Below are positions 46,288 through 58,630 of a DNA stretch of 64,000 bases, piece after piece. The stretch covers positions 124,001-188,000 of the forward strand of contig MKSR01000046.1 in the NCBI GenBank assembly GCA_001898145.1. The letters run 5' to 3'. The notes under the pieces are model-generated. The model ran no database searches, was not told the origin of the DNA, and saw only the letters and a list, made by a program, of their open reading frames with translations. A program made the position numbers and the translations under genes. Each line of letters opens with the position of its first letter. The stretch's first letter is position 1. The stretch is from Dyadobacter sp. 50-39 (GTDB lineage: Bacteria; Bacteroidota; Bacteroidia; Cytophagales; Spirosomataceae).

Positions 46288-46917
46288 TCAGAGCGCGATG
46301 GCCAGGCAATGCCCGTCGAACCAGCGAATGTGGATGTTGGAGGGGACGACGAGATCTTCGTCGGTGAGGCTTCCTCTGAGGATGATGTCCGCATTCTGGA
46401 AGGGGCTGATGAAAATAGAGTCCCTGAAACTGATCTTTTTCTTTCCGTAGAGTTTATACAAAGCTTCTTTCGCGCACCAGTACATGCAAAGGCGGTTCAT
46501 TTCGTCCTGGGCGTGGTCGTATTCGTGCGGGGACAGGAATTTTTTGGAAGTACGCTGTAATTTCGGGTCGGTTTTTTCCATATCGATCCCCACGGCTGCG
46601 GTGGGATTGATTGCCACGGCCACAAATTCGGCAGTGTGGGTGATGGAGATGTGGGAGTCATTGTCGATCAGGAAAGCCTTGCCGTGCTCGTCCTTGTGAA
46701 TGCCAACGTAATTGATACCAAACTGTTCGGCGAGGGTTTTGATCAGCATCCGGCTTGCGAGCCATTCGCGCTTTTTTTGCGGATGCGAAATGCGGTCGAG
46801 CTCTTCCTGGCTAAAACCGTTACCCAGTGCATTTTGCAGTTCCGCTTCGGTTTCCGTCAGTTTCCAGAGCAGCAACGTGCTGGTATCTTCGATCTTTTCG
46901 GAATGAACGAGGGGCAT
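46288..46917 (-). CDS. 4'-Phosphopantetheinyl transferase
   Basis: The 209-residue enzyme (ATG at 46917) moves phosphopantetheine from CoA to carrier proteins. The family signatures are GIDMEK (Asp112, Glu114) and WCAKEALYKLYG (Glu151, Lys155), plus SITHTAEFV (His94). It is of the Sfp-like half-repeat type, larger than AcpS, so it may serve secondary-metabolite carrier proteins as well as fatty-acid ACP. Only 30 bp separate its start from the divergent WD40 gene, so their promoters must overlap. Confidence 0.92.
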   Translation of the reverse strand: MPLVHSEKIEDTSTLLLWKLTETEAELQNALGNGFSQEELDRISHPQKKREWLASRMLIKTLAEQFGINYVGIHKDEHGKAFLIDNDSHISITHTAEFVAVAINPTAAVGIDMEKTDPKLQRTSKKFLSPHEYDHAQDEMNRLCMYWCAKEALYKLYGKKKISFRDSIFISPFQNADIILRGSLTDEDLVVPSNIHIRWFDGHCLAIAL

Positions 46918-46947
46918 GGTAATACTGTTTGCTACAAAACTATCAAG

Positions 46948-47847
46948 ATGAATATTCGCAAAGTAGATACTTTTTCCGGTCATAGGGACAGTGTTTATAC
47001 AATTATTTCTGACGAAACGGGCAGCGGCTTTTATTCGGCCGGTGCCGACGGCTTCGTCATTCAATGGGACCTGCAAAAGCCGGATCTGGGCAGACTGGTT
47101 GCGCGTGCGGGTACATCCGTATACGCGCTCGCGCTACACGAAGGCAGCGGTTCGCTGTGGATCGGCCAAAATTTTGAAGGTATTCAGGTGCTGGATACCC
47201 GCGGAAACACGATTGAAAAAACCTCGAACATTACTAATTCGAGCATTTTCGACATTCGCTTTGCAGGCGATAAGGCGCTCATTGCCCTGGGCGATGGCGT
47301 GGTGGTCGTTATGGATGTTCCGTCGTTTGCTGTGCAGAAACATCTCAAAATTGCCGGCAAAAGTGTGCGCAGCATCGCGGTCAACCCGGGCACCAATGAA
47401 TTTGCCACCGGCGATAGCGATAGTAACGTCCATATCTTCGATCTCGACGGTTTTAAATTAAAAAAGACCATCCAGGCACATACAAACTCGGTGTTTTCCG
47501 TTAAGTATTCACCGGACGGTAAATACCTCTTTACAACCGGCCGGGATGCGCACCTGAAAATCTGGGACGTTAATGATGCATACGGCATCGTCTCCGATAT
47601 CCCCGCGCACATGTACGCGATCAACGACATTACATTCAGTCCTGATCGCTCCCTCTTCGCCACTTGCAGTATGGATAAGTCCATCAAATTGTGGGATGCA
47701 GCCACTTTCAGGCTTAAAAAAATTATCGATCGGGCACGTCATGCAGGGCACGGAACGTCGGTCAACAAACTACTCTGGACGGGGTTTGAGAATCAACTGA
47801 TTTCATGCAGCGACGATCGCATGATATCGGTTTGGGAGGTCGCTTAA
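46948..47847 (+). CDS. WD40 repeat protein
   Basis: The 299-residue product (ATG at 46948) is composed of about seven WD40-type repeats, several ending in WD or in a close variant (IQWDLQK, LKIWDVND, IKLWDAAT, ISVWEVA), which suggests a single seven-bladed propeller. It has no signal peptide, so it is cytoplasmic. WD40 propellers are docking platforms; no partner is evident other than the divergent phosphopantetheinyl transferase gene. A longer frame to 46636 runs antisense through that gene and is rejected. Confidence 0.92.
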   Translation: MNIRKVDTFSGHRDSVYTIISDETGSGFYSAGADGFVIQWDLQKPDLGRLVARAGTSVYALALHEGSGSLWIGQNFEGIQVLDTRGNTIEKTSNITNSSIFDIRFAGDKALIALGDGVVVVMDVPSFAVQKHLKIAGKSVRSIAVNPGTNEFATGDSDSNVHIFDLDGFKLKKTIQAHTNSVFSVKYSPDGKYLFTTGRDAHLKIWDVNDAYGIVSDIPAHMYAINDITFSPDRSLFATCSMDKSIKLWDAATFRLKKIIDRARHAGHGTSVNKLLWTGFENQLISCSDDRMISVWEVA

Positions 47848-49425: not shown

Positions 49426-50637
49426 TCAATATTCGTGGGGAAGCTCGATGTTCACCGCCTCGTGCCACGGCAAGCCGTGAATGTTCAGCAATTCCATGAA
49501 CGGATCCGGATTCAGTTCTTCTACATTATATACGCCTGGCTTCATCCACTCTTCGTTGGTCAGCATCAGCATCGCGCCGATCATCGCGGGAACGCCCGTG
49601 GTGTAGCTCACCGCCTGCGCACGCACTTCGCGGTAGCATTCGGCATGATCGCAGTTGTTCCAAACATAATAAGTTTTCTCTTCACCGTCTTTGATACCCT
49701 TGATCTGGCAGCCGATGGACGTCTGGCCTGAGTAATTTTCGCCCAAAGTATCCGGTGCCGGCAATACCGCTTTCAGGAATTCCAGCGGAACGATATCGAT
49801 GCCGTTGAATTTGATCGGCTTGATGCTCGTCATACCTACATTTTCCAGCACATTCAAATGCGTAATGTAAGCCTGGCCGAATGTCATCCAGAAACGTGCA
49901 CGTTTCAGGGTAGGGAAGTTTTTTACCAATGATTCGAGCTCTTCGTGGTACAATACGTAGCTCTCTTTCGGTCCGATGCCAGGGTAATCGATCGGTTTAT
50001 GGATGGACATCGCAGGAATTTCTACCCACTCGCCGTTTTCCCAATAACGGCCTGGCTGGGTGATCTCGCGGATGTTGATTTCAGGGTTGAAGTTGGTCGC
50101 GAATGCCTTGCCGTGATCGCCTGCATTACAGTCGATAATGTCCAGGTAATGCATTTCGTCGAACTGGTGCTTGGCTGCGAACGCCGTAAACACCTGCGTA
50201 GCGCCCGGATCGAAACCGCAACCGAGCACCGCCATCAGGCCAGCCTCTTTGAAGCGCTCCTGGTAAGCCCATTGCCAGCTGTATTCGAATTTCGCGACGT
50301 CTTTTGGTTCGTAATTGGCGGTATCCAGGTAATGTACGCCGGTTTCAAGGCAGGCCTCCATAATCGTCAGATCCTGGTAGGGCAGCGCCACGTTGATAAG
50401 CACTTTCGGCTGAAAGCGTTTGATAAGCAGCACCGTTTCGGCCACGATATCGGCATCCACCTGGGCGGTCTGGATGTCAACTCCTTGCATTTCCCTGATT
50501 TCGGCTGCTATTTTATCACACTTCGCCTTGGTGCGGCTGGCGAGCATTATTTCGGTGAAAACATTGCTGTTCAATGCGCATTTGTGTGCCACCACGCTTC
50601 CGACACCTCCTGCGCCAATGATAAGAACCTTGGACAT
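49426..50637 (-). CDS. Saccharopine dehydrogenase family, carboxynorspermidine dehydrogenase-like
   Basis: The 403-residue enzyme has an N-terminal NAD(P)-binding motif GAGGVGSVVAHKC and the core of the saccharopine dehydrogenase family. Similarity in length and in motifs such as LGCGFDPGATQVF and YHEELESLV suggests the carboxynorspermidine synthase branch that makes polyamines from diaminopropane or putrescine and aspartate semialdehyde. The decarboxylase partner is not in the window. It ends next to a repeat and is convergent with folB. Confidence 0.85.
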   Translation of the reverse strand: MSKVLIIGAGGVGSVVAHKCALNSNVFTEIMLASRTKAKCDKIAAEIREMQGVDIQTAQVDADIVAETVLLIKRFQPKVLINVALPYQDLTIMEACLETGVHYLDTANYEPKDVAKFEYSWQWAYQERFKEAGLMAVLGCGFDPGATQVFTAFAAKHQFDEMHYLDIIDCNAGDHGKAFATNFNPEINIREITQPGRYWENGEWVEIPAMSIHKPIDYPGIGPKESYVLYHEELESLVKNFPTLKRARFWMTFGQAYITHLNVLENVGMTSIKPIKFNGIDIVPLEFLKAVLPAPDTLGENYSGQTSIGCQIKGIKDGEEKTYYVWNNCDHAECYREVRAQAVSYTTGVPAMIGAMLMLTNEEWMKPGVYNVEELNPDPFMELLNIHGLPWHEAVNIELPHEY

Positions 50638-50685: not shown

Positions 50686-51876
50686 TCAATTTAAATTTCC
50701 GTTAACCACCTTCATCACTTTGCCTTGTCCGTAGTTGAGATAGTACACTTCGCCCTTACTATCCTGCCCAAATGACGAAATGTTGCCCTTCCCTTCCATG
50801 ATCAGGGTGTTGGACTTGCGGGTATCGCCGTCAAGTTCGAGTGCCCATATGCGTCCGCTGATGTAATCACCGTAAATGTACTTGCCGGCAAGGGCGGGGA
50901 TCGTCTTGCCGCGGTACACATAGCCGCCTGTAATGGACCGGTCGCCATTATCCTGGTTATAATCGTGGACGGGCTCGATGAGGCCCTGGGCGTTGCAATT
51001 GGCGGAAGGATTGTAACAGTCGATGCCTTCTTTCAAGCGCCATCCGTAGTTGCCTCCTTTTGTAATGATGTCGATTTCTTCGCGTTCATTCTGGCCCACG
51101 TCACCCGCGAACAACTTGCCGCTCCCGGTGTCGAAGCTGATGCGCCAGGGATTGCGGAGGCCGTAGGCGTAAATTTCGGGCAAATTGCCAGTCGTACCGG
51201 TAGCATATGGATTATCTGCCGGGATGCTGTAACTACCTTTCGCAGTCCCGTTCACATCCACTCGGAGGATTTTACCCAAATAGCTTTTCAAGTTTTGCGC
51301 ATTGTGCTGGGGATCGCCGCCGCTTCCGCCGTCACCGGTCGCAATGTAGAGATATCCATCTTTCCCAAACTGCATCGAACCACCATTATGATTGTCATAC
51401 GGTTGGTCGAACGTGAGTAAAACCGCTTCACTGGCCGCATCGGCTTGCGTAGCGCTGGTGGCTTTGTAGCGGGCGATAACGGTTTTTAGGGGTGTGCCTG
51501 TGGTGTAGTTGACGAAGAAATACCCATTGGTTTTAAAATCCGGGTGAAATGCGAGACCTAGCAACCCGCGCTCGCCGCCCGATCTTACCTTGCTTTTAAT
51601 GTCAAGAAATGTAGAACTGGATGAAACATTTTCGGCATTGGCGAACACCTTGACTGTACCGCCTTGCTCGACGACAAAAAAATGACTGCTGTCGCCCGGC
51701 GCTTGCATGAGATCGATGGGCTGGCTGAATGACAATGCAGGGAAAACGTCTTTGGAATCAATGGTATTTTCTGGGAGCTCTGGGTCTTGCGGTGTTTCCG
51801 GGTCGTCGGATTTACAGGCAAAAATCGCCATGGCGAATGCCAGCGGAACGAGCGTTAGGTGAAGTATGGCTTTCAT
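50686..51876 (-). CDS. PQQ-dependent sugar dehydrogenase, lipoprotein
   Basis: The 396-residue lipoprotein (Cys21 in AIFACKSDD) belongs to the soluble glucose dehydrogenase/aldose dehydrogenase family, with GERGLLGLAFHPDF, HNGGSMQFGKDGYLYIATGDGG and AYGLRNPWRISFD. It would oxidise sugars in the periplasm with PQQ or, in this family, occasionally with other roles; PQQ synthesis genes are not here. It follows eboF by 63 bp on the same strand, so it may be read from the ebo transcript, though the functional link is uncertain. Confidence 0.88.
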   Translation of the reverse strand: MKAILHLTLVPLAFAMAIFACKSDDPETPQDPELPENTIDSKDVFPALSFSQPIDLMQAPGDSSHFFVVEQGGTVKVFANAENVSSSSTFLDIKSKVRSGGERGLLGLAFHPDFKTNGYFFVNYTTGTPLKTVIARYKATSATQADAASEAVLLTFDQPYDNHNGGSMQFGKDGYLYIATGDGGSGGDPQHNAQNLKSYLGKILRVDVNGTAKGSYSIPADNPYATGTTGNLPEIYAYGLRNPWRISFDTGSGKLFAGDVGQNEREEIDIITKGGNYGWRLKEGIDCYNPSANCNAQGLIEPVHDYNQDNGDRSITGGYVYRGKTIPALAGKYIYGDYISGRIWALELDGDTRKSNTLIMEGKGNISSFGQDSKGEVYYLNYGQGKVMKVVNGNLN

Positions 51877-51939: not shown

Positions 51940-53304
51940 TTAAATCAGGTGTTTCCAGATCAAGTCGTACACATCTACCGCTTCCAGTTCCGGCCTCCCG
52001 GCTGCCTGGTCGGTGATGATGATCGGGTAGTATTCTCTGGGAATATTAATGCCGCCGTGCGAGCCTTTTACCAATGTGGCATCGAGTGGAATGACGTCCA
52101 TTAAATATCTGAAACCTAGTAGCTTGCGTGCCAGCTTGTACCCTGCGCGAAGTTTGATCAGGGGATTTTTAGGATCCATAAACATCTCCACCGGATCGTA
52201 ACCCGGCTTGCGGTGGATGTCCACCAAATGCGCATAATCCGGTGCTTTGGCGTCGTCAAGCCAGTAATAGTAGGTAAACCAGCTGTCCGGTTTCGCGACT
52301 ACTACAATGTCACCCGAGCGTTCGTGGTCGATATGGTAGTCTTTCTGAGCTGCTTTGTCGAGAACGAGGTCGATGCCCGGTGTTTTTTTCAAAACCTGCA
52401 TGACCTGCTCTTTAACTGAATGATCGTTCAAATAAACATGCGCAATCTGGTGGTCGGACACGGCAAATGCTTTGGAAATGCCCGCATCCAGCAGCTCATA
52501 CCAGCGCTCAACCCGTACGGAAATCAGCCCTTCATTACGCAGAATACGGTTGATGTGGATCGGGTTATTCACTGCATTGATACCGTATTCAGAAAGCAGG
52601 ATAATCTTTGCACCACGCCCTTCATAGAACTGGATGAGGTCTTTCACGACTTCGTCGATCTCATTCAGCTCCTTGCTGATTTTCGAGAAATCCGGCCCGA
52701 ATTTTTGCAGGCAATAATCCAGGTGCGGCAGATAAATGAGTGTGAGCGTAGGGTTATGCTTTTTCTCAACCAACATGGAAGCGTCGGCAATCCAGCGTGT
52801 GGATTTGATATTCGCATTCGGTCCCCAGAAATTGAATAGCGGAAACTGGCCTAGTTCGGCTTGCAGCTCGTCGCGCAATTCGGGCGGGTAGGCGTAACAA
52901 TCGGGTGCTTTTACGCCGTCGGCATGGTATTGCGGGCGAGGGGTTACCGACCAGTCGGCGGTGGAGTACATATTATACCACCAGAACATTTTCGAAACGG
53001 TAAAATTCGGGTCAACTTTTCGTGCATTGTCCCAAATTTTGTCCCCTTGTACGAGCTTGTTCGACTGTTTCCAGAACTTCACTTCCGAATCCTCGCGATC
53101 GTACCAGCCATTACCGACGATTCCGTTCTCCGCAGGCCATTTGCCAGTCACATAAGTACTTTGCGAAGTGGTGGTAACAGCCGGAAGTACAGGTTTAATA
53201 GGCGTCAAATGCCTTTTTTTGACATAAGCATCCAAAAACGGCGTATGTTCGCCGATCAGGTTGGCGCTTAGTCCTACTATATCGATTACTACGGTTTTAT
53301 TCAT
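51940..53304 (-). CDS. eboF: EboF, alkaline phosphatase superfamily protein
   Basis: The 454-residue protein belongs to the alkaline phosphatase/nucleotide pyrophosphatase-like superfamily: a metal-binding Asp8 in VIDIVGLS, a Thr-rich nucleophile region around residues 44-47 (LPAVTTTSQSTYVTGKWP), LPHLDYCLQKFGPD and LLSEYGIN. It completes the six-gene ebo cluster and overlaps eboE by 8 bp. In other bacteria the ebo set helps a secondary-metabolite precursor reach the periplasm; the biochemical step of EboF is not settled. Confidence 0.9.
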   Translation of the reverse strand: MNKTVVIDIVGLSANLIGEHTPFLDAYVKKRHLTPIKPVLPAVTTTSQSTYVTGKWPAENGIVGNGWYDREDSEVKFWKQSNKLVQGDKIWDNARKVDPNFTVSKMFWWYNMYSTADWSVTPRPQYHADGVKAPDCYAYPPELRDELQAELGQFPLFNFWGPNANIKSTRWIADASMLVEKKHNPTLTLIYLPHLDYCLQKFGPDFSKISKELNEIDEVVKDLIQFYEGRGAKIILLSEYGINAVNNPIHINRILRNEGLISVRVERWYELLDAGISKAFAVSDHQIAHVYLNDHSVKEQVMQVLKKTPGIDLVLDKAAQKDYHIDHERSGDIVVVAKPDSWFTYYYWLDDAKAPDYAHLVDIHRKPGYDPVEMFMDPKNPLIKLRAGYKLARKLLGFRYLMDVIPLDATLVKGSHGGINIPREYYPIIITDQAAGRPELEAVDVYDLIWKHLI

Positions 53305-54499
53305 ACTTCAGGACTTTCTTCACCCATTCGAGCTCACGCACGATGGATTCGCCGATAGGCTTCTGCATATCTTCCGGCAGCACGCCCCAGGTGTAGGTTT
53401 CCACTTCGAGATAAGTCGAGAACGGGTTCTCTTTTTGCAATGCCAATGTCTGCACAATGTCTCCCTGCGTCGAATCCAGCGCGCCGTAGGTGTTCACAAA
53501 CAACGGAACGTGGAAATGTACCCGCCATTCCTCGTGGGTTTCGTCCCAGTCGGTGAGCGCCTCTTTGAGATCGGGATAATGGGTGAAATGGCCATCGTCG
53601 TGGCGGGCTACCACCTGGTGGAGATACACCGGCTCATCGAAGGTTTCGATGGCTTTGCGTTTGATCTCCCGCTCGCTGGTGTAGTTCACCTTCAACGCCG
53701 AACTCACCTGAATGCGGCCTACCCGGATGCCATGTTCATTCAGTGCATCGAGAATGTCTTCGGGTTTTTCAAAACCAACCGCGGCATGGCAGATATCGTA
53801 GCACAGCTGAATGTGTTTTAAAATAAGCGCTTGTGCCGCGTCACCATCGATCCCGTATTTTTCTACCAGATAAATAGTCCCTTTCGGAAGCAGCATATTG
53901 ATATACCAGGTCACGAAATCCTCCGTATTGTCGAGAATGCCGTCCGGCTCGGGTTCGATGTCCAGGTGCAGGAATTTGCCGGTTTCATTTTCAATGCGGA
54001 TCAGCTCGTCGAGGAGTTCGAGGATGTGATCGGTTGCGGTTTCGGTGGCCTGCTGCTTATCCGCTTCGGTTTTCCACCAAAGACGGTAGGAGAGCGGCGG
54101 CGTCGAAACGCCTCCGTGCATATCAGCAGGCAGCAACGCGGCCAGGATATTGAAAAGGCGTTTGGTATATTCCAGCCGGTCGTTAGTTGTCCAGTCCGGC
54201 GTATGTACATCGTCCTTCACGCGGGTATTGTGAAAGCCGCCGTAGGGAAAGCCATTGATCACAAACACGTAAATGCCGTGGCCTGCAAGCCAGGTTTTGA
54301 ATTCTTCCAGTGCTTCCGGCTTGCTGAGCTCTGTCGAAGCTTCATTCGCTACCCGCAGGCCCAGCCCGAATGGCTTGCCCGGCGCCAGTTGCTCGCGGAT
54401 GAATGGTAAGCTCTCGCGCAGCGACCTGAAATGGTCTTCCCATTTCTCACCGGGATGGATATTGCTGCAATAGGTTAGGTGTCCGTAAGGCGTGATCAT
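53297..54499 (-). CDS. eboE: EboE, xylose isomerase-like TIM-barrel protein
   Basis: The 400-residue protein matches EboE: the opening YGHLTYCSNIHPGEKWEDHF, GLGLRVANEAS, VFVINGFPYGGFHN and HLDIEPEPDG all fit the sugar-isomerase-like barrel of that family. No experimentally defined reaction is known to me. The start ATG overlaps the eboD stop by four bases, and its own stop lies within the eboF start region (8-bp overlap), so the three are strongly coupled. Confidence 0.9.
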   Translation of the reverse strand: MITPYGHLTYCSNIHPGEKWEDHFRSLRESLPFIREQLAPGKPFGLGLRVANEASTELSKPEALEEFKTWLAGHGIYVFVINGFPYGGFHNTRVKDDVHTPDWTTNDRLEYTKRLFNILAALLPADMHGGVSTPPLSYRLWWKTEADKQQATETATDHILELLDELIRIENETGKFLHLDIEPEPDGILDNTEDFVTWYINMLLPKGTIYLVEKYGIDGDAAQALILKHIQLCYDICHAAVGFEKPEDILDALNEHGIRVGRIQVSSALKVNYTSEREIKRKAIETFDEPVYLHQVVARHDDGHFTHYPDLKEALTDWDETHEEWRVHFHVPLFVNTYGALDSTQGDIVQTLALQKENPFSTYLEVETYTWGVLPEDMQKPIGESIVRELEWVKKVLKYE

Positions 54500-55656
54500 G
54501 CAGGGATGGTTTTGGAACTTTCGAGGTAATCCACCGACTGTGCGATGATGTCGGCGTCCAGTTCATGCACTTCCACTCCTTTTCCGATCTTTTCCAGCAG
54601 CATGATCGTCAACCGGCCGCCCAGATGCTCGCGGAATTCCTGTAAGCCATTACGAAGGTTGATTTTATCGTTTTCAGCCAGTTTTGAATGGTATAGTTCA
54701 AAACCGACTTTGGTAAGCACATCTATAATTCGTTGCAAATCGCTTTCGGGCAGCATACCGATTTTCTGGGCATACACGCAATCCAATGCAATACCAATGG
54801 CTACCGCTTCGCCGTGGCGCACCTGGAAGTTGGTCAGGAATTCGAGCTTATGCGCCGCCCAGTGACCAAAGTCCAAAGGACGCGAAGAACCGAATTCGAA
54901 CGGGTCGCCGCCGGCAATATGGTCGGTATGCATTTCGGCGCAGCGGTGAATGAGGTAGGACATAGCCTCTTCATCTCGGTTTGCAAGTGCGGCTGCATGT
55001 TCTTCAATCCATTCGAAGAATGCCTGGTCTTTGATCAACGCCACTTTTACCGCTTCTGCAAGTCCTCCGCGCCAGTCGCGGTCGTCGAGCGTGCGCAGGA
55101 AAGTAAGGTCATTGAAAACTGCCACCGGCGGAGCGAATGTGCCGAGGAAATTCTTTTTGCCGTGAAAGTTAATGCTGTTTTTTACGCCCACGCCCGAGTC
55201 GTTCTGGGCCAGAACCGTCGTAGGGATGCGGATCAGCTTGATACCCCGGTGTGAAACCGCGGCCGCGTAGCCCACAAGGTCGAGCACGGCGCCGCCACCG
55301 ATTCCAACTACGAAGGAATGGCGGTCGATCCCGAAAACGTCGACGGCCTCAACGAGTTTATCGAACTGGGCCGGGTCGTTTTTGCAAGCTTCCCCGCCCG
55401 GTACCGAAATGATTTCGGCTGCCAGCTGGATGTGCTGCACGTTTTGCGCGAAGTAAGCGCGGATATTGCTTTTTAAATCCGGCTGCGTTTGTTCAAACCC
55501 CTCATCCACGATCACAAGGGCTTTGCGCTGAAAGCCCTGATCGGTATATCCTTGAAAAAAATCTCTCAGTAACGGGTTCTGGGTGTCAAAAAGGTGTTGG
55601 GTGAAGAATACGGCATAGTTGTATTCCACCTGGAAACGTTGTTTGATGGTTTGCAT
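54496..55656 (-). CDS. eboD: EboD, 3-dehydroquinate synthase-like protein
   Basis: The product (386 residues from ATG at 55656) belongs to the sugar-phosphate cyclase superfamily related to AroB: GGGAVLDLVGYAAAVSHRG in the NAD region, metal-binding HRCAEMHTDHI and the RPLDFGHWAAHKLE motif. The gene context (between eboC and eboE) marks it as EboD rather than the housekeeping AroB. An ATG at 55668 is a possible alternative start. A 206-bp gap separates it from eboC and contains an inverted repeat. Confidence 0.9.
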   Translation of the reverse strand: MQTIKQRFQVEYNYAVFFTQHLFDTQNPLLRDFFQGYTDQGFQRKALVIVDEGFEQTQPDLKSNIRAYFAQNVQHIQLAAEIISVPGGEACKNDPAQFDKLVEAVDVFGIDRHSFVVGIGGGAVLDLVGYAAAVSHRGIKLIRIPTTVLAQNDSGVGVKNSINFHGKKNFLGTFAPPVAVFNDLTFLRTLDDRDWRGGLAEAVKVALIKDQAFFEWIEEHAAALANRDEEAMSYLIHRCAEMHTDHIAGGDPFEFGSSRPLDFGHWAAHKLEFLTNFQVRHGEAVAIGIALDCVYAQKIGMLPESDLQRIIDVLTKVGFELYHSKLAENDKINLRNGLQEFREHLGGRLTIMLLEKIGKGVEVHELDADIIAQSVDYLESSKTIPA

Positions 55657-55700
55657 TGAATTGTGCATTACACTAGCAAAGTGGGTATTCGTTATTAAAA

Positions 55701-55727
55701 CGTTTGAAAACACGATCCGTTCAAACG
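55701..55727. promoter_or_regulatory. Inverted repeat upstream of eboD
   Basis: CGTTTGAA (55701-55708) and TTCAAACG (55720-55727) form an 8-bp perfect inverted repeat with an 11-nt spacer, 45-71 bp before the eboD start. It could be an operator or a small hairpin for an internal ebo promoter. Confidence 0.4.
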
Positions 55728-55862
55728 CAACTCAAAATCATTGAAATAAAGACTAAAATTAACAGGTTTTCCCCGTCCCGCCATCGTCCAATTTATTTAT
55801 TAGCCCAAAGCCACCCGCGTAAACGCCTTGCTCCTTCCTCCCTTTCGTCCTTTCTTCACTCA

Positions 55863-56732
55863 TTAAGTAACCGCAAAAGCCTTCGCCAAATACATGGAGA
55901 GAGGCAGCAACGCGAGCACTGCGATGGCGATCGGCAACAAGCCAAATGCAGCACACCAGGAAGCATTCATGACGATGAGTGAGATGACCCCCGCTTTTAC
56001 GGCTTTACCGATCAGCGGGCCGATGGGATTCTGCATGGCATTCCAAAGCGGACGGAAAATGAACCACGCGTGCAGCAGCACAAAGGGAATCGTAAACAGG
56101 AGATTGCCTTTTCCCTGGGCGATCGTCAACTGTGCGACGAGGACGGCGAGGTATAGAAAGGCTGCAATGTATAAGGTGCGTTTTTTACCGCCGTGCACTT
56201 CGTCCTGGCTGATCAGCGTGATGGCACCGATGTACATGATCGGGAAAATGGCGATGAACGCCCATTGCTGAAACGATTCGGGCAACACACTCATACCCAG
56301 GATCAGGTTGCCGCCCCTGCACATGCCCATCACGAGCGGGCCGAAGAATATGTGGTGTTTGGCAAAACGGTTATATAAGACAGTCAGCATTGCGACTACG
56401 ACGGCGATCATCCCGCTTTGCAGACTGAATGCGGCAGCCGCAACAATGCCCAGCAGCAAAAGCGAAATGCCCATAGTAGCTGCCTGCGTAAGCGGAACTT
56501 TGCCACTTGGAATGGGCCGCTCGGGCCGCTCCACGGAGTCAAGCCTGGCATCGAAAACGTCGTTCATGACCACGCCGCCGCCATACAGGCCGAGCGTGGA
56601 AAGTACAAGCAATGCGGGTGAAAAATCCGAAAAGGTAAACTGCGCGATCGCCATACCGGCGAGGATGTCCGCGATGGCGGTAACCAGGTTGGCCGGCCGC
56701 GTAAGCTGCAAATAAGGTTTAAGACTCGCCAC
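55863..56732 (-). CDS. eboC: EboC, UbiA-like prenyltransferase
   Basis: The 289-residue, multi-pass membrane protein belongs to the UbiA superfamily: the first Asp motif reads NDVFDARLD (Asp58, Asp61, Asp65) in VVMNDVFDARLDSVERPERPIPSG. A clear second DxxxD motif is not evident, though DEVHGGKKRT lies at the corresponding position. The start codon is GTG at 56732, one base past the eboB stop. In the ebo set, EboC is the predicted membrane component; whether it modifies a metabolite with a lipid or isoprenoid is inference. Confidence 0.9.
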   Translation of the reverse strand: MASLKPYLQLTRPANLVTAIADILAGMAIAQFTFSDFSPALLVLSTLGLYGGGVVMNDVFDARLDSVERPERPIPSGKVPLTQAATMGISLLLLGIVAAAAFSLQSGMIAVVVAMLTVLYNRFAKHHIFFGPLVMGMCRGGNLILGMSVLPESFQQWAFIAIFPIMYIGAITLISQDEVHGGKKRTLYIAAFLYLAVLVAQLTIAQGKGNLLFTIPFVLLHAWFIFRPLWNAMQNPIGPLIGKAVKAGVISLIVMNASWCAAFGLLPIAIAVLALLPLSMYLAKAFAVT

Positions 56733-56733
56733 T

Positions 56734-57762
56734 TTAATTGATCACTAAAAAGTCTTTCACCGGAGCGGGCTGCTGGCCGCCTCTCAGAATGCTGTTGCCG
56801 TGGAATTTCTCCGTCTGGTCTACCGCATACCCCGATTCGAAATCGGTCACGTCGATTTGCCCGCTTTTACCGAATGCATCAATCGCATTCTGGTAGGTTA
56901 CCAGTCGGATGGTTTCGTCGGAAATGCCGCGCATTTTCATCAATGCGGCTGTTTTAGGGATCGCCAGCGGATCGGAAATGCCCCAGTCCGCGGCGGAATT
57001 GATCATAATGCGCTCGGGGCCATATTGCTCTACCACTTTCACCATTCGCTCATTACCCATTTTGGTAAACGGATAAATGGTAAATGCCGCGTAAAAGCCC
57101 TGGTCAAGCACACTTTTGACGGTTTCTTCATTGTTGTGATCCACAATCACCCACGACGGGTCGATGCCGTGTTCCAATGCAATAGCCATGCTGCGTTCGG
57201 TGCCTTTCTTTTTGTCGCGGTGCGGAGTATGGATCTGAACCGGAAGTTTGGCCTCTTTGGCGAGTTCGAGTTGGAGGCGGTAGTACTTTTCCTCGGCAGG
57301 CGTCTGGTCGTCAAAACCGATCTCGCCTACACCCACCACACCTTCTTTATAAATGTACAATGGCAGGATTTCCATTACCTGCTCCGCCAGCGGTTCATTG
57401 TTCGCTTCACGGGAGTTGAGGCCCATGGTGCAATAGTGTTTGATTCCAAACTGTGAGGAGCGGAACCTTTCCCATCCAACCAGGCTGCTGTAATAGTCTT
57501 TGAATGTCGATAATCCCGTCCGCGGCTGGCCTACCCAGAATGCAGGCTCGATCAGCGCCACGATACCGGCCTGGTTCATGGCCTGGTAGTCGTCCGTTGT
57601 GCGGGAAACCATGTGGATATGCGGGTCGAAAAAGCGCATTCCTTTAATGAGGTCTTTGTAGTCGTTCCAGGCGATGTCGCGGTGTGCGGGGGCCTGGTTC
57701 GCTTCTTCGCTGTCTTCGAAATGCGAAGGGTTAGGGGTTACGTCTGTATGATTAGCGCACAT
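56734..57762 (-). CDS. eboB: EboB, TatD-like metal-dependent hydrolase
   Basis: The 342-residue protein belongs to the amidohydrolase/TatD superfamily: metal-binding His48 and His50 (FFDPHIHMV), a Glu in VGVGEIGFDDQT, a His in VQIHTPHRDKK, and DHNNEETV. It matches EboB of the ebo cluster. The start follows the eboA stop by 4 bp and the stop precedes the eboC GTG by one base, so the first three genes are read as a tight unit. Its substrate is unknown. Confidence 0.9.
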   Translation of the reverse strand: MCANHTDVTPNPSHFEDSEEANQAPAHRDIAWNDYKDLIKGMRFFDPHIHMVSRTTDDYQAMNQAGIVALIEPAFWVGQPRTGLSTFKDYYSSLVGWERFRSSQFGIKHYCTMGLNSREANNEPLAEQVMEILPLYIYKEGVVGVGEIGFDDQTPAEEKYYRLQLELAKEAKLPVQIHTPHRDKKKGTERSMAIALEHGIDPSWVIVDHNNEETVKSVLDQGFYAAFTIYPFTKMGNERMVKVVEQYGPERIMINSAADWGISDPLAIPKTAALMKMRGISDETIRLVTYQNAIDAFGKSGQIDVTDFESGYAVDQTEKFHGNSILRGGQQPAPVKDFLVIN

Positions 57763-57766
57763 AGTT

Positions 57767-58630
57767 TCAGTGTTCGAGATCGGCCCAGGTCAATGCGCCG
57801 GATTTTACGGATTTTTCCAGATCGGTGTACTTTGCCAGAAGATAGTTGGCTGCGGGCAGCGTTGACTCGCCGCAGGCCAGGGCGGCAGCCTTGCGGTCAT
57901 CTTCTTTTTCAGAATCAAACAAATGCTGCATATCGGCGAGCAGGGCCGGTGTCAGATACTTGCTCGTAAGCCTCCACACCTGGGCGGGTACGCTCCGTCC
58001 CGCCGCCCAGCGCTCATGCGCGAAGTCGGCCAGCGTCACAGCCAGTTTCTCGTTCGAGCGGTTTTCCAGGCCTTCTATAAAATGAATAGGCTTGTCGTTG
58101 AATATCGTTTTGAGAACCAGCTGGTTCCACGCGAGCTCACTGAAGTATTTCTCGGGGTAGGGGTTATGCAATGCAATCGCATCAAAGACAAAACCCATAT
58201 TCGACCGCACGGCGTCCGTCGCGCGGAAAAGCCATTGATCGGGATAGGAAAGCAGCGGGAGTGCCGAGTAGAGCGCAACCAGCTCATTCATTTCCGCAGT
58301 ATCGAACAGCGTTTCGATATTTTTCACATAATCGTCCCGGTCCGAGGGGTCGAGCTGGGTAAGCAGCCACACGCGGGCAAGCCTCACGAGCGACCATCCT
58401 TCGACGGAGAAGCCGGGGATTTCAATGTTCAATGCCGCCTTGTCGGCATCGGTGGTATGGATGATTTTTTTGGTTAGAAACCTGGGCGCTGCCACGAAGG
58501 CTGTCATCAGTTCAATGGGTGCGGACGATCCCCCGGCCGATGTTCCCTTTTGCTGCAACCATTCTGCCTCACCGGCGGAAGTGTTTGAAGCGATGATTTC
58601 CCCAATTTTTTGTTTGATAATATCGGACAT
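57767..58630 (-). CDS. eboA: EboA, helical protein opening the ebo operon
   Basis: The 287-residue, mostly helical protein (ATG at 58630) fits EboA, found only at the head of ebo clusters. No enzymatic motif is visible. Stretches such as EWLQQKGTSAGGSSAPIELM and LVRLARVWLLTQLDPSDRDDY are characteristic of the family as far as I can recognise; the assignment also rests on the order eboA-B-C-D-E-F. Function is unknown. It starts the minus-strand operon, with a 9-bp inverted repeat about 85-115 bp upstream. Confidence 0.88.
   Translation of the reverse strand: MSDIIKQKIGEIIASNTSAGEAEWLQQKGTSAGGSSAPIELMTAFVAAPRFLTKKIIHTTDADKAALNIEIPGFSVEGWSLVRLARVWLLTQLDPSDRDDYVKNIETLFDTAEMNELVALYSALPLLSYPDQWLFRATDAVRSNMGFVFDAIALHNPYPEKYFSELAWNQLVLKTIFNDKPIHFIEGLENRSNEKLAVTLADFAHERWAAGRSVPAQVWRLTSKYLTPALLADMQHLFDSEKEDDRKAAALACGESTLPAANYLLAKYTDLEKSVKSGALTWADLEH

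Follow-up and report, generated by a model that had tools for sequence, protein, structure and literature searches.

An ebo operon of Dyadobacter sp. 50-39 and its possible role in the synthesis of a prenylated cyclitol

What an ebo operon does in a genome where no cargo pathway is seen beside it is the question raised by a stretch of 64,000 nucleotides from Dyadobacter sp. 50-39 (contig MKSR01000046.1, positions 124,001 to 188,000; hereafter the window), which carries the six genes eboA to eboF. The biochemical role of ebo has been in question ever since the operon received its name in 2016. We propose, with rather more confidence than doubt, that ebo is a biosynthetic module complete in itself, which makes a prenylated, inositol-like cyclitol, and that export is a consequence of this synthesis. 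Where EboD is missing, MIPS, the enzyme that converts glucose 6-phosphate to inositol 3-phosphate, would substitute for it, and this swap gives a concrete chemical prediction, namely an inositol-like ring joined to a prenyl chain. If this is true, the "metabolite traffic" module of many bacteria and some algal plastids would be a lipid or cofactor pathway.

The operon and its spread in Bacteroidota

The operon spans positions 51940-58630 on the minus strand and, by rising coordinate, reads eboF-E-D-C-B-A, as placed by open reading frame (ORF) positions and profile matches:

57767..58630, minus strand: eboA, helical protein; NF035938 (EboA_domain), 181.8 bits (cut-off 50)
56734..57762, minus strand: eboB, TatD-like metal-dependent hydrolase superfamily; PF01026 (TatD), 55.8 bits (cut-off 27)
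55863..56732, minus strand: eboC, UbiA-like membrane prenyltransferase with a GTG start; NF035940, 414.1 bits (cut-off 250)
55657..55862, minus strand: gap of 206 bp between eboC and eboD, from the coordinates
54496..55656, minus strand: eboD, sugar-phosphate cyclase, not AroB; NF004852, 604.2 bits (cut-off 333); ORF readable from 55713
53297..54499, minus strand: eboE, xylose-isomerase-like TIM barrel; NF035939, 505.2 bits (cut-off 250)
51940..53304, minus strand: eboF, alkaline-phosphatase superfamily with altered metal ligands; PF01663, 214.6 bits (cut-off 23)

Only 4 bp separate eboA from eboB and 1 bp eboB from eboC, while eboD and eboE overlap by 4 bp and eboE and eboF by 8 bp. The start codon of eboA is the ATG at 58630, and the gap measures 206 bp when the ATG at 55656, which is residue 20 of the longer ORF and the point where conservation begins, is taken as the start of eboD. 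A sequence-only reading of this DNA had given the same spacings, which are exact, and its description of six minus-strand ebo genes in canonical order was borne out by the coordinates, by the NCBIfam and Pfam profiles and by the recurrence of the order in related genomes (see below). The profile search that it proposed placed EboC, EboD, EboE and the EboA domain above their cut-offs; the hits of EboB and EboF included no model of either name, and these two proteins are placed by superfamily and gene position only. EboA scored 222.4 bits against the narrower model NF035937, below the cut-off of 320, and this narrow model was not deemed necessary for ebo membership. All six families are thus found in order and on one strand, and the locus is a plain member of the known ABCDEF ebo operon type. 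The source genome (7.7 Mb in 48 contigs) contains one EboC and two far weaker UbiA relatives.

The operon is standard equipment of its bacterial family. Of 121 family genomes sampled, that of the window among them, 106 had an EboC above its cut-off. Of 20 stretches fetched from the family, two of them from the window's genus, 19 had the complete set in the same order on a single strand, in some cases interrupted by other genes; in the remaining one (G004) a distance of about 19 kb separates the D-E-F part from the rest. Since the order recurs in this way, the six-gene arrangement is not due to chance. Outside the family the operon has a scattered distribution, with EboE in 24 of 296 Bacteroidota genomes, again counting the window's own. 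The neighbourhood comparison across Bacteroidota that the sequence-only reading had suggested did not reveal a shared cargo, no non-ebo gene family recurring in more than six of 49 ebo stretches. Because the operon belongs to the core of its family and has no recurrent neighbour family, the absence of a cargo pathway beside it is normal; the earlier observation that none adjoins this copy holds among the 24 neighbours scanned (see below), and what does not hold is that this is something special. Yurchenko et al. 2016 (PMC5133447) call the ABCDEF form ancestral in Bacteroidetes and propose an isoprenoid-cyclitol product for ebo.

Two variants of the arrangement were also seen. In one Bacteroidota family (f23; loci L147, L148, L151, L155, L158 and L159) the genes form two divergent arms, A-B-C and D-E-F, and in locus L166 (genome G324) the EboE match falls into two slightly overlapping pieces, as if by frameshift or misassembly.

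Exchange of eboD for MIPS

Among the 22 phylum-level Bacteroidota stretches, the cluster of genome G323 was the only one to lack eboD yet be otherwise complete, and this genome has no EboD above cut-off anywhere and does have MIPS. MIPS was present in 2 of the 23 ebo genomes of the phylum sample, G323 and G347, of which G347 keeps eboD. EboE was found in 29 of 398 genomes of G323's family (G323 included), and their 29 clusters comprise ten of the form A-B-C-E-F without D, 17 with D and two cut by contig ends. All ten D-less genomes had MIPS (nine of nine when G323, which raised the idea, is left out), as did 1 of the 17 eboD-positive genomes, neither of the two with contig-end clusters and 2 of 20 ebo-negative relatives; the association of eboD absence with MIPS in this family has a Fisher p of 1.3e-6, kinship ignored. 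Pooled with the phylum sample, MIPS occurs in 10/10 D-less against 2/37 eboD-positive genomes, neither count containing the EboE-positive G031, the cluster of which was not fetched.

All ten D-less genomes belong to one genus, g67, in which the sole eboD-bearing ebo genome (G982) is also the sole one of 11 without MIPS. In a combined phylogeny of EboB, EboE and EboF, the D-less state has at least two origins, since the starred branches force two and a single origin was seen in 0% of 200 bootstrap trees. The D-less cluster of G1054 branches together with D-bearing clusters from a different family, and the other nine form one clade. The MIPS proteins of the D-less genomes form one clade (support 100/99) beside other Bacteroidota MIPS (99/99) and apart from the operon copies of Actinomycetota, and it is therefore probable that MIPS was recruited separately in Bacteroidota; this tree gave long-branch warnings, its Actinomycetota group has weak support (49/46) and two of its housekeeping rows are incomplete. 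In five of the ten D-less genomes MIPS is directly followed by an isomerase of the Actinomycetota-operon type (45-47% identity), an adjacency found for none of the four MIPS of D-positive or ebo-negative Bacteroidota genomes. The lysines aligned with K274, K278, K306 and K367 of A. fulgidus MIPS, which we take to be active-site residues, are kept in 41/41 MIPS that are operon-linked or come from D-less genomes.

Actinomycetota show the exchange within the operon itself. On two Streptomyces plasmids, EboA, EboB, EboE and EboF lie beside a UbiA protein of SCO3242 type; a sugar-phosphate isomerase and a protein annotated as inositol-3-phosphate synthase are also encoded there, and eboD is missing. 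Our first sample consisted of the best 80 EboE loci among the matches listed, all with Actinomycetota titles, a bias that follows from the query alignment being led by a Streptomyces row. MIPS was found in 59 of these 80 loci and eboD in none, the exact order MIPS-C-isomerase-A-B-E-F in 54, and of the 60 loci that are 15 kb or longer, 56 contain MIPS. In an evenly drawn sample, EboE occurred in 11 of 246 Actinomycetota genomes, with MIPS in 12 and eboD in 0 of 13 clusters. This sample includes the already known centre genome G121 with two clusters, one of which is L063 of the best-80 sample, so that the samples overlap; without G121 the counts are 10/11 and 0/11. None of 15 Actinomycetota ebo genomes searched had EboD above the NF004852 cut-off. 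Since 24 of 25 Actinomycetota ebo genomes, picked from the best 80, have at least two MIPS genes, the operon MIPS is usually an extra copy. By comparison, five annotated clusters on plasmids, those of Aureibacter, Deinococcus, Ketogulonicigenium, Azospirillum and Roseivivax, list a "3-dehydroquinate synthase" in the stretch shown, and MIPS is not among the genes there. In the genome of the window itself, the MIPS family PF07994 has 0 matches and eboD is present, so its locus is not of the MIPS variant of ebo.

Several loci merit separate mention. In L195 (G955) about 2.2 kb with other same-strand reading frames lies between eboC and eboE, at the place expected for eboD. Genomes G121 (L169, L170) and G566 (L171, L172) have two ebo clusters each, one of those in G566 being without a nearby MIPS. 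An annotated ScyD/ScyE family gene (L059, 2930-4129) is found just upstream of a Streptomyces MIPS-type cluster. Beside the Ketogulonicigenium cluster (L057, 5756-7802 and 14208-15119) are two Gfo/Idh/MocA oxidoreductases and a sugar-phosphate isomerase, enzymes that are often met with inositol-type substrates.

The Ebo proteins and what they may make

The sequence-only reading had called EboD dehydroquinate synthase-like, which is right for the superfamily and not for AroB. EboD scored 236.6 bits against the aroB model TIGR01357 and did not reach the cut-off of 305, while a separate gene elsewhere in the genome exceeds it with 339.7 bits; EboD is therefore not AroB. In an alignment to solved cyclases, Lys178, Glu220, Lys223, His284 and His300 of EboD, each conserved in 46/46 rows, stand at residues shared with the aligned dehydroquinate synthases (DHQS). 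Asp281 (46/46 rows) stands where four aligned DHQS have Asn and where ValA, a cyclase of the same superfamily, also has Asp, and His363 is aligned with a ValA His; we take the ValA residues to be Asp281 and His360. EboD differs from ValA in having a second His, H288 (46/46 rows), where ValA has Pro. The residue pattern agrees with the tree of Yurchenko et al., in which EboD lies near cyclases of sedoheptulose 7-phosphate (PMC5133447). EboD is thus shown to be of the cyclase superfamily, and it would close a sugar phosphate, its presumed substrate, into a carbocycle.

The remaining proteins mostly resemble enzymes. EboC has the NDxxDxxxD motif of UbiA-type prenyltransferases, its residues invariant in 8/8 rows including the window's. 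In EboB, E147, H178, H209 and D259 are found in 141/141 rows, and H48 and H50 in the 131/131 rows that reach there; these we read as TatD-type ligands, presuming the usual set. The EboE model (mean predicted local distance difference test score, pLDDT, 93.9) is a xylose-isomerase-like barrel with IolI, IolE and ketose 3-epimerases among its structural neighbours, and E182, E184, D235, H238, H294, H328, H330 and E367 are kept in 141/141 rows. EboA, in an AlphaFold2 model of 57767-58624 (mean pLDDT 96.2), is nearly all helix, a clear relative was not found by structural comparison, and the protein is probably a helical scaffold. For EboF, we presume that the two-metal ligands of type I phosphodiesterases / nucleotide pyrophosphatases are Asp, Thr, Asp, His, Asp, His and His. 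With positions set by alignment to 1ei6, Thr44, Asp196 and His416 are present in 139/139 aligned EboF rows, and three of the seven positions have Gln200, Glu239 and Tyr240 in place of the canonical His, Asp and His, again in 139/139 rows and identically in Bacteroidota, Actinomycetota and a few other rows. At position 8 the 43 Bacteroidota rows divide into 25 with Asp and 18 with Asn, and the other rows are mixed or gapped. EboF therefore lacks the full seven-ligand set although it passes PF01663, and since three canonical ligands are replaced its role as a hydrolase is doubtful; it may fall outside the normal two-metal hydrolases. The altered ligands are not mentioned in the EboF section of PMC5133447.

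From these assignments the following pathway can be drawn up. Synthesis would take place at the inner membrane, and the product would be an inositol-like ring carrying a terpene chain. EboD would convert a sugar phosphate to the carbocycle, EboE and the metal hydrolase EboB would tailor the ring or the conjugate, EboC would join ring and prenyl chain, with the ring as its presumed natural acceptor, and EboA would act as scaffold; for EboF, ordinary two-metal hydrolysis is doubtful. EboD and MIPS would supply equivalent rings, MIPS being found in the operon together with the added sugar-phosphate isomerase (Actinomycetota) or elsewhere in the genome (one Bacteroidota genus). The product would have its function in the cell envelope, perhaps as a membrane cofactor or lipid carrier, and such a role would explain why the scytonemin monomer does not reach the periplasm in Nostoc ebo mutants. 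In Dyadobacter sp. 50-39, no adjacent cargo genes would be needed.

A wider version, on which our confidence falls a little short of even, would hold that ebo is a widespread pathway for an unrecognised inositol-like prenylated membrane cofactor, and that two unrelated ring-closing enzymes have replaced each other at its first step on three or more occasions. EboD would carry out this step in most Bacteroidota, as in the loci seen from Deinococcota and Pseudomonadota, and MIPS, whether or not the isomerase is added, in Actinomycetota and, on two occasions, inside Bacteroidota. The ring made by EboD would be of inosose or inositol type rather than an aromatic precursor, and every ebo phenotype, that of scytonemin export among them, would come from the lack of this lipid. 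The eboD/MIPS swap looks new: among the matches listed in the open PubMed Central (PMC) literature, with subscription papers and preprints outside the scope, no paper linking ebo to inositol synthesis was found, and "inositol" has 0 occurrences in PMC5133447 and PMC9235831, as has "myo-inositol" in PMC6282210.

Alternatives and known systems

After Klicki et al. 2018, ebo may instead be a translocation machine for a specific small molecule that is made elsewhere in the genome, the cargo here being unnamed. The deletion mutants of Nostoc retain the scytonemin monomer in the cytoplasm (PMC6282210), and NCBI names EboA and EboE "metabolite traffic" proteins. However, none of the cluster genes matches a transporter family and five resemble enzymes, a role in transport alone would give little reason for the exchange of the cyclase for MIPS, and the presence of the operon in most family genomes without widely shared neighbours gives no sign of one dedicated linked cargo. 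The requirement for export has been shown for scytonemin in Nostoc only, and the authors of that study themselves suggest a lipid-carrier-like product (PMC6282210). The earlier description of ebo as a transport system draws on this one case; the comparative data fit biosynthesis of an own cyclitol-derived product better, and we regard a dedicated translocation machine as unlikely. The product could also be a prenylated aromatic such as a farnesylated quinoline, with EboD giving a shikimate-like precursor. Three Bacteroidota EboC homologues do farnesylate 8-hydroxyquinoline-2-carboxylic acid in Escherichia coli membrane assays (PMC9235831), and the deposited annotation calls EboD a 3-dehydroquinate synthase. 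Against this, the quinolines were chosen test compounds, the true AroB lies elsewhere while EboD is under the aroB cut-off, the conserved Asp of EboD is that of ValA and not the Asn of the four DHQS, and the absence of EboD beside the presence of MIPS points to a cyclitol. We consider an aromatic product improbable.

The proximity of MIPS to ebo might, finally, be coincidental, the inositol being made for phosphatidylinositol or similar lipids and eboD having been lost by unrelated decay. MIPS is indeed common in Actinomycetota ebo genomes, as its multiple copies there illustrate, it occurs without ebo, and the D-less Bacteroidota clusters are mainly one clade. Yet most Actinomycetota clusters, in either sample, have MIPS as part of the operon, where it precedes the UbiA gene, genes A, B, C, E and F are retained where D is gone, and the single exception in genus g67 has eboD and no MIPS. 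Coincidence therefore seems improbable to us. Several points nevertheless weigh against a cyclitol pathway. The swap shows that EboD and MIPS have similar roles, not that the product is identical, and the cyclitol is here a prediction from gene content. The published EboC substrates are aromatic quinolines, not cyclitols (PMC9235831). The Bacteroidota link between eboD and MIPS is one of co-occurrence and not of operon membership, and the isomerase does not adjoin MIPS in 5/10 D-less genomes, the search for it being confined to the neighbourhood of MIPS. MIPS is found together with eboD in G1023 (f8 set) and G347 (phylum set), and also in the two ebo-negative relatives out of 20. The four lysines occur in 4 other Bacteroidota MIPS as well and are therefore a sign of a working MIPS, not of a link to ebo. 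In Actinomycetota, neither MIPS nor eboD is nearby in 4 of the 60 longer loci and in 1 of the 13 clusters. Since nine of the ten D-less clusters form one clade they count as one event, and an honest count, kinship considered, is two Bacteroidota events plus the Actinomycetota state.

The surroundings of the operon were scanned with Pfam on 30 window proteins, that is the six Ebo proteins and 24 neighbours, which are part of the ORFs in the window. Among these 24 neither polyketide synthase, non-ribosomal peptide synthetase nor terpene synthase was found, no metabolite cluster besides ebo was seen and no scy genes were recognised; they include an Sfp-type phosphopantetheinyl transferase (46288-47076). 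A GSDH protein (50686-51876) had matches beside ebo in just two of the 20 family stretches, both from the window's genus. A carboxynorspermidine-synthase-like gene (49426-50637; 409.2 bits, under the cut-off of 800) is near eboF also in L039, L043, L045 and L047. At the window's edge (3-2524), two adjoining minus-strand ORFs of about 420 aa, one of them cut by the edge, have no Pfam match at 1e-5.

Compared with the ABCDEF ebo operon as described in PMC5133447, the locus has the same six genes, the same order and single strand and the same phylum, and nothing essential differs, the 206-bp gap and the small overlaps included. With the ebo and scytonemin operon of Nostoc punctiforme it has the EboA, B, C, E and F families in common; there, according to the authors, eboD lies nearby in the opposite direction and was not analysed in that paper, and the scytonemin genes adjoin ebo, unlike in the window, where none was seen among the proteins scanned (PMC6282210). 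The Actinomycetota cluster, MIPS-SCO3242 prenyltransferase-isomerase-EboA-EboB-EboE-EboF, shares homologues of EboA, B, E and F and an EboC-related UbiA-like enzyme (in L059, 352.4 bits against the SCO3242 model, cut-off 260, and 118.8 against the EboC model, below its cut-off of 250), and differs in having MIPS and the isomerase in place of the window's eboD.

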